A stretch of 22,005 nucleotides of DNA from positions 1 through 22,005 of the IMG/VR virus record IMGVR_UViG_3300035670_001353. The stretch is one strand, 5' to 3'. The position numbers and the translations under genes are program-made. The notes under the pieces are model-generated. The model was not told where the DNA came from and ran no database searches. It saw only the letters and a program-made list of their open reading frames with translations. Of the stretch, positions 2,388-6,107 are shown in pieces; the stretch's first letter is position 1, and the number at the start of each line of letters is the position of its first letter. Source of the DNA: a virus.

Positions 2388-3065
2388 TTACTTAATCGCA
2401 ATGAACCCTGTGAACCCGTGATTCTGCCAGAATGAATCGATTTTACTAAAGCCAAACCCAGCACAGGCGCACATGCTCATGAGTTCTTGGCGTGTACTTA
2501 GTTTCATCATGTGGCGCAACTGGCGCTCTTTGTCCAGAATGTCATCTGAGGTAAAATGCTCTCGCTTGTAATCATAGTAGGTAAATGTGCGAATCTCTTG
2601 AATGCGAGGAGTTTCGGATACAGTCTTTTCTGCAAAGATGAATGCGCCACCATAGCGTAGACCATCATAAATTTTCTTTACAATATCTCTGCGTAGATGT
2701 TCTTGTATAAATTGAAGTGTAAAGATTGATGTTACCAATGTCGCATTTTTGAAATCAAAGTCAAGCACATTGCCACGATGATACTTCAAATTCTTGTAGT
2801 TCTTTTCATCTTCATCAAAGCCTGGGAAAAAATCTTCTTCAATCTCAATACCAAAGTAATTTGCTCTTGGTGCAAAATCGTTTTGTTCAATCATTGCTTT
2901 GAGTAGTTTGCCTGTCGAACAACCAACATCAATGACTGAAGAATCATCTTCAACAAAGTATTCGGAGTATTTAAGAATGTCTGTCCAAAGATTTGTGTAA
3001 CCACGAATTGAATGTTCGATGTGATTGTCAAAGCCTTCTTCTCTTTGTGCAAAAGTAAATTTCAT
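2388..3065 (-). CDS. cmoA: CmoA-like carboxy-S-adenosylmethionine synthase
   Basis: Bacterial CmoA converts SAM plus prephenate into carboxy-SAM (Cx-SAM), used by CmoB on tRNA uridine-34. This 225-residue protein is close to CmoA along its length: 'FDNHIEHSIRGYTN' near the N-terminus (E. coli has FP-MIQRS-PGYSN), motif I VIDVGCSTG (44-52), 'FTLQFIQ', 'KIYDGLRYGGAFIFAEK' and C-terminal 'GFTGFIAIK' (GSLVALK in E. coli). Arg181 aligns, with one gap, to E. coli Arg199, which binds the Cx-SAM carboxylate. The Asp that binds ribose is replaced by Glu in 'FGIEIEE'. The protein lacks about 18 N-terminal residues of the bacterial enzyme. ATG 3065 overlaps the methyltransferase stop by four bases, with AAGGA 10 bases upstream. 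No cmoB is visible, so the product probably feeds another transferase, most simply its neighbour. A generic SAM methyltransferase is the less likely alternative. Confidence 0.88.
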   Translation of the reverse strand: MKFTFAQREEGFDNHIEHSIRGYTNLWTDILKYSEYFVEDDSSVIDVGCSTGKLLKAMIEQNDFAPRANYFGIEIEEDFFPGFDEDEKNYKNLKYHRGNVLDFDFKNATLVTSIFTLQFIQEHLRRDIVKKIYDGLRYGGAFIFAEKTVSETPRIQEIRTFTYYDYKREHFTSDDILDKERQLRHMMKLSTRQELMSMCACAGFGFSKIDSFWQNHGFTGFIAIK

Positions 3066-4303
3066 TTTATAGATTCCTTGTACGGTTTCAATATTTTCAA
3101 ATAGACATTTGAAGCAAGTGCCGCCATCATCTTGGGTGCAACCATGCGACCAAGTCTTTCTGCTTGTTGATCAAAGGTGCCTGTCAATATGTAGTCATCA
3201 GGCATGCTCATGAGAATCTTCAACTCTTTGATCGTAAGTTTTCGATTCTTTGCGTAGTGAAATACACCACTCACACCTTTTTGTTGACCTGCTTGCGTGA
3301 GTGTTGGAGATGGTAATTGAATTGCAGGTCGAATCATGTTGAAGCAAGAACCTTTTGGATTCTTTGATCGAAACTGTTTGTCTGAAGGCTTCATATGCTT
3401 GTCTGGATTGAATGGAAGAAGTTCAATAAACTTTTTCTGAAATGAACCTTCAACAAAATCTAGCAACTCTTTTTCTTCATCAGGATCATTGACAACAGAA
3501 TCAATCGCATCTTTGATGCCAATATGTTTTGGTGTGCTTGTTGGTGGACGGGTCATCGATGCGGCATTGAGAAAGTTAATGCCAACTGCATCTGCAACAT
3601 CTTCACGAATACAAACAAAGAACAAGCGTTCTCTCGCTTGTGGCACACCATAGTCTGCGGCATTCAATACATGATGAGTTACGATATAACCAGGAGGTAT
3701 CTTTTCGAATTCATTTTGAAACTCAATCAGTTTCTTTTGTGCTTCACCAATTGTGATGCCTTTGACATTTTCTGCAATGATCACTTTCGGCTGAATTTCT
3801 TTTGCAATACGAATGTACTCGAGGAACAAGTCTTCGATTGCTTCTACAACTTGATCATCAGAGTAAGACTTTACGCCACTCTTTACGATTGTCTCTGAAG
3901 ATGAAACAACTTCGCCAGTATCAAAGTCAAAGTAAGATTCTGTAATGTGCTTCGTTGCACCTTTCCAATTCTTTTCTCGCTTACCAGCAAGTGAGAATGC
4001 TGAACATGGAGGAGAACCATCAAGTATGTCAAGTTCACCAGGTTCAAGATTAGCAACATTCAAAAAGTCTTTACCAGACAACTTCTTGATGTCGCCTGGA
4101 ATAATCTTTGTGTCTGGAAAGTTTGTAGAGTAAGTTTTAATTGCTTCTTCAACAAATTCATTAATTGCAATGACTTTGCCTCCAGCAATGCGATAGCCAG
4201 TCGAACTGCCACCACCGCCAGCAAACGTGCTGACAACAGTAAAGAGTTCTCTGGCAGACGATTTTTTCACATCGTCAACGGTATAGTGATCGTATTTTGT
4301 CAT
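3062..4303 (-). CDS. DNA cytosine-C5 methyltransferase family, atypical motif X (candidate carboxymethyltransferase)
   Basis: This 413-residue protein has the C5-cytosine methyltransferase motifs in order: motif I FAGGGGSSTG (27-36), motif IV GSPPCS with catalytic Cys100, motif VI ENV (178-180), motif VIII ADYGVPQARER (216-226), a target-recognition region, then a C-terminal motif X helix. Motif X normally reads QxGN(S/A)VxP; here it is ERLGRMVAP, so the conserved Asn is Arg386 and the next small residue is Met. That position lines the SAM pocket near the transferred methyl group. With a CmoA-like gene overlapping its stop codon, the likely donor is Cx-SAM and the product 5-carboxymethylcytosine. 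No restriction endonuclease is nearby, which argues against a restriction-modification system. The target sequence cannot be read from the protein. No good Shine-Dalgarno precedes ATG 4303; a consensus promoter does. Family is near certain, the altered donor is inference. Confidence 0.93.
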   Translation of the reverse strand: MTKYDHYTVDDVKKSSARELFTVVSTFAGGGGSSTGYRIAGGKVIAINEFVEEAIKTYSTNFPDTKIIPGDIKKLSGKDFLNVANLEPGELDILDGSPPCSAFSLAGKREKNWKGATKHITESYFDFDTGEVVSSSETIVKSGVKSYSDDQVVEAIEDLFLEYIRIAKEIQPKVIIAENVKGITIGEAQKKLIEFQNEFEKIPPGYIVTHHVLNAADYGVPQARERLFFVCIREDVADAVGINFLNAASMTRPPTSTPKHIGIKDAIDSVVNDPDEEKELLDFVEGSFQKKFIELLPFNPDKHMKPSDKQFRSKNPKGSCFNMIRPAIQLPSPTLTQAGQQKGVSGVFHYAKNRKLTIKELKILMSMPDDYILTGTFDQQAERLGRMVAPKMMAALASNVYLKILKPYKESIK

Positions 4304-4338: not shown

Positions 4339-5127
4339 TCGACTTGTCTGCCAATCTCGGCATATGTCCATCATTCTTTTTCTTTTCCGAAAATTGATGA
4401 CTGGATCATTAAACAAGGACTCAAATGCTACATCAATGCCAGCACACAATTGTAGATTGGTATGTTTCTGCACTTTACCAATCTTTTTGAATTCTGGAAA
4501 TGCATTGACAACATGATGCTTCTGGAATGGTTGATTGACTTGAAACCAATCGAACTGATAAAAGAAGTCACGAATGTCATCATGCACATATGGGGTCAAA
4601 TACTTTTTACCAAACTTTTCTGCTACTCTCGTTTGCCATATCTTGCCACCAAGATTGTGTGGAAGATAATGATCATCACGATATTCATCAAACTTGGACT
4701 TTGGTGTTTTGTAATGCATACATGCTTTCTTGCTTACACCATAGTAACCATCAGCACCAAGTCCAGTCAATACTTCAGTCTCTTTCATGTTTGGATAAAC
4801 ATAGAGAAAAGGAAAACAACATTCAAACTGTGTCTTCTTCACACACTTGATTTCATTCAGTAGTGTAAGGAAATCTTCTCTCAGATTGTCCGTAGGAACT
4901 TCAGTATTCACGCAATCCCATCCCATAACTTCGCATACATGAACTGCTTTCATAGAATCGTATGATGGGCGATCTTTGAGATGAAATGTGTAACCTGTAA
5001 CCTTTTTACCTAGGCGATGTGCGGCAAAAGCAACTGAAATGCTATCGACTCCACCAGAGAGTAGAACTGCAACTTCATTGTCTTTTGATCTTTCGATTAT
5101 TGATTTTTCAATTAGTTTGTCTATCAT
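4312..5127 (-). CDS. Asparagine-synthetase-like ATP pyrophosphatase (amidotransferase domain, no glutaminase)
   Basis: This 271-residue protein has the PP-loop SGGVDS (24-29) and 'LTGLGADGYYG' (120-130), the counterpart of the asparagine synthetase 'G-x-G-(A/S)-D-E-x-FGG' loop, with Glu replaced by Gly. Further on, 'PYVHDDIRDFF' and 'GKVQKHTNLQL' (about 217-226) correspond to the C-terminal helices and Lys region of the synthetase domain. Enzymes of this family adenylate a carboxylate and pass it to ammonia or an amine. The N-terminal glutaminase domain of AsnB is absent, so free ammonia, a partner protein or another amine must be the nucleophile. It overlaps the dCMP deaminase end by 20 bases and abuts the cytosine transferase gene. 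A natural substrate would be the carboxylate of carboxymethylcytosine, but that is inference. QueC (7-deazaguanine synthesis) is an alternative PP-loop call; the GADGYYG loop and lack of other queuosine genes argue against it. Confidence 0.8.
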   Translation of the reverse strand: MIDKLIEKSIIERSKDNEVAVLLSGGVDSISVAFAAHRLGKKVTGYTFHLKDRPSYDSMKAVHVCEVMGWDCVNTEVPTDNLREDFLTLLNEIKCVKKTQFECCFPFLYVYPNMKETEVLTGLGADGYYGVSKKACMHYKTPKSKFDEYRDDHYLPHNLGGKIWQTRVAEKFGKKYLTPYVHDDIRDFFYQFDWFQVNQPFQKHHVVNAFPEFKKIGKVQKHTNLQLCAGIDVAFESLFNDPVINFRKRKRMMDICRDWQTSRLTFEEETV

Positions 5128-5575
5128 TTAATTTCCATGCGATGATTCCGTCACATTTATTTAGGAATTTCACTCCTTCATCTGTGCGATAATCTTCGGC
5201 ATAATAAACTTCTGTGATGCCAGATTGATAAATCAACTTAGCACACTCAATACATGGAGAACAAGTAATGAACATCGTTGCGCCATCACCACTTTCTGTA
5301 GACTTAGCAAGTTTGGCAATGGCATTTGTTTCTGCATGAAGAACTTCTGCTTTTGTTTTAAGTGTAGGACCATCACCCTGTAAATATGGAAGTGTTGGAC
5401 TTGTTACATCTTCACACTCATTTGTCCAACCTGCCGGCATTCCATTATAGCCAATGGAGATGATGCGATCATCTTTGACAATGACCGCACCAACTTTCTT
5501 TCGCTTTGCTGAAGAATGCTCTGCAAACAAATGAGCAACCTTCATGTAAGTGCCGAGATACTTTTCTTTAATCAT
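5108..5575 (-). CDS. cd: dCMP deaminase
   Basis: This zinc enzyme deaminates dCMP to dUMP, the precursor of dTMP, like T4 gene cd. Ligands are visible: HAE (80-82, His80 metal and Glu82 catalytic) and CSPC (105-108, Cys105 and Cys108). 'GYNGMPAGW' (42-50) is typical of the family. Length (155 residues from ATG 5575) is somewhat shorter than T4 Cd. A TTG two codons upstream (5581) is an alternative start; I prefer the ATG because the duplicated copy of this 5' end at 6109-6153 starts with the equivalent ATG. Its start overlaps the end of the oxygenase gene by 8 bases. It may rebalance cytosine and thymine nucleotides during replication, and sits beside cytosine-modification genes. Confidence 0.92.
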   Translation of the reverse strand: MIKEKYLGTYMKVAHLFAEHSSAKRKKVGAVIVKDDRIISIGYNGMPAGWTNECEDVTSPTLPYLQGDGPTLKTKAEVLHAETNAIAKLAKSTESGDGATMFITCSPCIECAKLIYQSGITEVYYAEDYRTDEGVKFLNKCDGIIAWKLNDRQTN

Positions 5576-5577
5576 TC
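5533..5577 (-). repeat. Direct repeat copy A: 5' end of the dCMP deaminase gene
   Basis: These 45 bases match 6109-6153 except for five substitutions. Both copies encode MIKEKYLGTYMKVA, and every difference is synonymous (AAG/AAA, TAT/TAC, CTC/TTA, GGC/GGT). Copy A is the functional start of the deaminase gene. Confidence 0.9.
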
Positions 5578-6107
5578 CCAACTTTCCCTTTTTTTGGAAA
5601 GTAATTCAAGTTAATAACACATCTAAATTTATCATCAGTACATGTTGTTCCTGTGTGTTTAATTTCAGAACTAAAAGAAACAAGTCTATTTTCTACAGAT
5701 TCAACTTTGTCTCCATTTTCAAAAAGTGTATATCCATTGTTAGTGTTCATATAAAATATTGCGGTTGTGCCGCCGATAGGCTCATTAAAGTCTGTGTGAA
5801 ATCCATATTCATAAATTTTATCGGCCGCGACAGTTAGATTTCCTTTAATTCTAAGAATTGCTAAAGGCGATATTTTAGTTAAGAGTGGTATCAAAAATTT
5901 ATAGAAATCGCTTTGTGGAGCCAAATCATTGTAAAACATATGGGTAAATTGATAATCGTATAGTGGATTAAATGTTGATCCAAATACTTTATAGTCATTG
6001 TAGTACCAAGGAAAATATGAATCTTCTCGGTTTATCAATATTTGTTTCATCATTTCAAAAGTATTTTTATCTAAAAAATCATCAATTATTTTTATGTCAC
6101 ATTCCAT
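5568..6107 (-). CDS. 2-oxoglutarate/Fe(II)-dependent oxygenase
   Basis: This 179-residue protein has the double-stranded beta-helix signature: HTD (His104, Asp106) in 'YGFHTDF', distal His151 in 'SEIKHTG', and Arg162 in 'FRCVINLNYF', the expected 2-oxoglutarate anchor. The family hydroxylates diverse substrates (prolines, nucleobases, small molecules) and is common in aquatic T4-like phages; the substrate here is unknown. Its start lies inside a duplicated deaminase fragment, and the AAGG of that fragment (7 bases upstream) serves as its ribosome site. Composition differs from its neighbour: 48 G/C in 5581-5760 (27%) against 70 in 5161-5340 (39%). This supports later acquisition. With a cytosine-modifying pathway downstream, oxidation of a modified base is possible but unsupported. 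Confidence 0.85.
   Translation of the reverse strand: MECDIKIIDDFLDKNTFEMMKQILINREDSYFPWYYNDYKVFGSTFNPLYDYQFTHMFYNDLAPQSDFYKFLIPLLTKISPLAILRIKGNLTVAADKIYEYGFHTDFNEPIGGTTAIFYMNTNNGYTLFENGDKVESVENRLVSFSSEIKHTGTTCTDDKFRCVINLNYFPKKGKVGND

Follow-up and report, generated by a model that had tools for sequence, protein, structure and literature searches.

A predicted CmoA-CmoX-CmoY DNA hypermodification operon in a T4-like phage

Main

The closest described relative of the locus studied here is the CmoA-CmoX-CmoY system of Synechococcus phage S-B43, characterised by Yang et al. (Nat Commun, Dec 2025, PMC12783734). In that phage, carboxy-SAM (Cx-SAM) is produced by CmoA and used by CmoX to form 5-carboxymethylcytosine at GC, after which CmoY couples glycine to the new carboxylate; native virion DNA contains the glycine amide 5gcxmdC, with 5cxmdC undetectable (PMC12783734). 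S-B43 CmoX, whose crystal structure is PDB 8YF3, contacts the carboxylate of Cx-SAM through R350, and the wild-type enzyme accepted only this donor (PMC12783734). In Escherichia coli CmoA, which serves tRNA modification, Arg199 binds the Cx-SAM carboxylate (PMC3663124).

Here we describe a related operon in IMG/VR virus record IMGVR_UViG_3300035670_001353, a fragment of 22,005 bases whose whole length we refer to as the window. We consider it very probable that the window, part of a T4-like phage, carries a DNA hypermodification operon of the CmoA-CmoX-CmoY type, in which CmoA would supply Cx-SAM, CmoX would carboxymethylate cytosine and CmoY would form an amide, likely with glycine. For this operon our evidence consists of gene content, homology and residue conservation, and the chemistry is carried over from S-B43. 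An earlier sequence-only reading knew of no textbook pathway of this type in phages, but the published work describes one; and because the survey of Yang et al., comprising 5,615 CmoX sequences, drew on sources including IMG/VR v4 (PMC12783734), the contig may already be among them. With the window, this newly described hypermodification reaches T4-like phages that differ from S-B43.

Organization of the operon

All genes of the operon lie on the minus strand. In order of transcription they are a cmoY-like gene (5127-4312), predicted to encode an ATP-dependent amide ligase of 271 amino acids, a cmoX-like gene (4303-3062) for a putative DNA cytosine C5-carboxymethyltransferase of 413 amino acids, and a cmoA-like gene (3065-2388) for a putative Cx-SAM synthase of 225 amino acids, followed by an intrinsic terminator (2366-2339). 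The cmoY-like gene ends 8 bases upstream of cmoX, and the cmoX and cmoA reading frames share 4 bases. The terminator, real in form, consists of a 10-bp stem with an 8-base loop and a T run, the stem beginning about 21 bases past the cmoA stop codon. The sequence-only reading had recognised the full-length CmoA-like protein, the overlapping C5-cytosine transferase, the terminator after cmoA and the lack of a nearby cmoB, all of which hold up: no cmoB match was found anywhere in the 22-kb record, itself a fragment. It had, however, described a pair of genes and missed the ligase gene directly upstream of the transferase gene.

The start of cmoY shares 20 bases with the end of a dCMP deaminase-like gene (5108-5581, minus strand; PF00383, E 1.8e-24), which also adjoins cmoY in four related loci (L005, L023, L024 and L048); we regard it as an operon neighbour and claim no role for it in the modification. 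At 5568-6107 on the same strand lies a gene of a type labelled 'DNA endonuclease V' by PHROGs and in many cyanophages. Its product has no confident Pfam match and shows an HxD...H...R pattern like that of 2OG-Fe(II) oxygenases, and the label is possibly a widespread misannotation. A perfect TTGACA-16-TATAAT match occupies 4338-4311 (minus strand), ending just ahead of the cmoX start codon; the region is alike in L005 and L006 (88-92% identical), with one box off by a base or so, and the match may reflect chance or coding sequence.

Genes for the Gp23 capsid protein, UvsW and SbcCD-like proteins are present on the contig, which on this basis belongs to a T4-like phage. The nearest relatives of the capsid protein come from Pelagibacter phage Mosig, a Stenotrophomonas phage and Methylophilales phage Melnitz.

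The Cx-SAM synthase

The window CmoA aligns to positions 15-239 of the 239 in TIGR00740 (E 2.4e-27), with a score of 96 bits that lies below the curated NCBI equivalog cut-off of 193 bits. It also matches the E. coli CmoA structures (PDB 4gek and 4iwn; E ~1e-18) and is 48.9% identical to S-B43 CmoA. Tyr39, Gly64, Cys65 and Ser66 of the E. coli enzyme are kept, and Ile stands at the position of Asn132. Arg199, tried as a mark of CmoA membership, is absent both from the window protein and from the proven phage CmoA: its position is taken by Glu180, and an arginine, Arg184, occurs four residues on, at the position of E. coli Glu203. This charge swap is fixed in 81 aligned phage CmoAs, among them the proven S-B43 enzyme, and Arg199 is therefore not defining for the phage group. 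Arg184 may take over the carboxylate-binding role.

The cytosine transferase

The cmoX-like product strongly matches both the C5-cytosine DNA methylase family (PF00145, E 3.9e-51) and the dcm superfamily model. Its best solved relative is S-B43 CmoX itself (PDB 8yf3, E 5e-107), and the S-B43 protein, annotated as 'DNA-cytosine methyltransferase' and 47.6% identical, is among its best annotated matches. Each of the nine CmoX residues named by Yang et al. and examined here has an identical counterpart in the window protein: F25, E47, F48, D69, S95, P96, P97, C98 and R350 of S-B43 correspond to F27, E49, F50, D71, S97, P98, P99, C100 and R386. The set includes the SPPC catalytic motif (S97-C100) and, in R386, the equivalent of the arginine that contacts the Cx-SAM carboxylate. 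Because the three enzymes are each about 48% identical to their S-B43 counterparts and the Cx-SAM-specific arginine is retained, the prediction that the window transferase uses Cx-SAM for cytosine carboxymethylation is strongly supported, and with it the donor proposed by the sequence-only reading. By analogy with S-B43, we infer a GC target motif. Within the window, avoidance of GC sites was uninformative as a sign of modification, with an observed/expected ratio of 1.06.

The PF00145 and dcm matches would also suit an ordinary SAM-dependent C5-methyltransferase that makes 5-methylcytosine and has cmoA as an unrelated neighbour. So would the sister clade, typified by phage Melnitz, in which leucine replaces the arginine and a TET/JBP partner fits 5-methylcytosine chemistry. 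Yet the window protein has Arg386 where S-B43 CmoX, an enzyme that in its wild-type form takes only Cx-SAM, has R350, and cmoA accompanies the transferase gene in most related loci. On the strength of this residue and this linkage we reject the ordinary methyltransferase, which we judge highly improbable.

Comparative survey of related loci

The linkage emerges from an IMG/VR search with the window CmoX, which returned 80 loci. The cmoA gene is present in 76 of these loci, cmoY in 68 and all three genes in 65. When S-B43-type phages and tandem copies are taken in, the arginine is present in every intact CmoX sequence (93/93); for 89 of the 93 the contig also bears cmoA, and of the four others three are on short contigs. 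A second search, with the Melnitz homologue, gave a sister-clade set of 81 sequences, Melnitz included, all with leucine at the arginine position and all without cmoA. In the Melnitz record the gene next to the transferase encodes a Tet_JBP oxygenase, and homologues of it occur in 64 of 80 Leu loci as against none of 80 Arg loci; where present, they mostly touch the transferase gene or share bases with it. Locus L004 (3998-6182) and loci L086-L165 make up this Leu-type group, in which the transferase gene mostly has a TET/JBP-like oxygenase gene directly after it.

These counts are not independent, because they mainly set one clade against its sister: clustering at 70% identity leaves 13 clusters versus 1 in the Arg/Leu contrast, which is largely one strong contrast and not many. 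The arginine also turns up in distant transferases linked to cmoA, those of PaBG and Erwinia phage pEa_SNUABM_46, and in that of Moraxella phage Mcat8, whose adjoining methyltransferase ORF looks CmoA-like by eye. The rule is not absolute, since Staphylococcus phages (L169, 4950-7468; L170, 4974-6673) pair cmoA with a C5 transferase that has glycine at the arginine position; in one of them, phage F1 (L169), an Asn-synthase-like ligase lies between the two genes. A survey that demanded R350 would miss such variants. As a simple residue marker, the split, in which arginine goes with CmoA and leucine with a TET-like oxygenase, names the residues to swap. The contrast suggests a single cytosine transferase lineage serving two hypermodification routes, and this lineage appears to be divided between methyl/oxidation on one side and carboxymethyl/amide on the other.

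Tandem CmoX genes occur in L043, L044, L053-L055 and L079-L084. Both copies carry the arginine and their target-recognition regions have diverged, possibly giving one phage two DNA specificities.

The survey also bears on whether, during infection, cmoA might act apart from the DNA transferase and provide CmoB with the Cx-SAM that it uses to modify the tRNA wobble base. Bacterial CmoA does just this, and the CmoB in question could be the host's and not the phage's. Against it stand the lack of cmoB in the record and the conserved linkage of cmoA to Arg-type transferases in dozens of phages, while the Leu-type sisters do without cmoA; we therefore reject a tRNA role, which we find hardly credible, and retain the supply of Cx-SAM to CmoX.

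The ligase and the predicted end product

The window CmoY belongs to the Asn-synthase family (PF00733) and is 47.7% identical to S-B43 CmoY. Its PP-loop, SGGVDS, is intact, and the invariant residues of the family are kept. The AlphaFold2 model (pLDDT 90) matches beta-lactam synthetase and asparagine synthetase, of which the 271-residue protein covers only the synthetase half, with no glutaminase domain. Six conserved basic residues, K97, K98, K133, R150, R249 and R251, are candidates for binding the carboxylate of glycine.

By analogy with S-B43, the pathway would begin with CmoA converting SAM and prephenate to carboxy-SAM. CmoX, selecting Cx-SAM over SAM through Arg386, would flip out the target cytosine, attack C6 with Cys100 and move the carboxymethyl group to C5. 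CmoY would then adenylate the new carboxylate and couple it to an amine, of which glycine is the most likely, to yield 5-glycylcarboxymethyl-dC. DNA so modified would be expected to resist host restriction, a presumed protective role.

The sequence-only reading had taken 5-carboxymethylcytosine as the product. With an intact ligase in the same operon this base is probably an intermediate, and the amide is the likelier end product because S-B43 CmoY ligates glycine and native S-B43 DNA has no detectable 5cxmdC. That 5-carboxymethylcytosine is instead the final base, with CmoA and CmoX at work and the ligase inactive or acting elsewhere, gains some weight from relatives such as S-CRM01, RN05-S, L070 and L072, in which no recognisable cmoY lies near the pair; but with the window gene intact, 8 bases from cmoX and so close to a proven glycine ligase, we hold it to be improbable. 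The end product is thus most likely 5-glycyl-carboxymethyl-dC, glycine being assigned from S-B43. There is a lesser chance, small but real, that in this phage group CmoY adds a partner other than glycine, which would place an undescribed amide of 5-carboxymethylcytosine in virion DNA.

Comparison with known systems

E. coli CmoA, of the tRNA cmo5U modification, shares full-length homology with the window protein, but its partner is CmoB where that of the window is a DNA transferase; the two also differ at Arg199/Glu203, which is Glu/Arg in the phage group, and at Asn132, which is Ile in the window. Asparagine synthetase B and beta-lactam synthetase have the synthetase fold and the SGGVDS PP-loop in common with CmoY, whereas CmoY is only 271 amino acids long, lacks the glutaminase domain and is 11-19% identical to them in sequence. 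The Melnitz-type C5-methyltransferases are sisters of the window transferase, 42% identical and with the same fold and motifs, but have leucine for the arginine, no cmoA and an adjoining Tet_JBP oxygenase.

The window phage and S-B43 both have the three enzymes clustered, at about 48% identity each and with no cmoB nearby, and both keep the Cx-SAM arginine, the SPPC motif and the PP-loop. The gene order differs (Y-X-A in the window, A-Y-X in S-B43), the window CmoX exceeds its S-B43 counterpart by 41 residues, most of them in an insertion past the SPPC motif, and the window has T4-like structural neighbours and an adjoining dCMP deaminase gene. The window system is a further member of the published system and not the first of its type, and what is added beyond it is small: the Arg/Leu split that parallels CmoA and TET, the tandem CmoX copies and the Staphylococcus-type variant.
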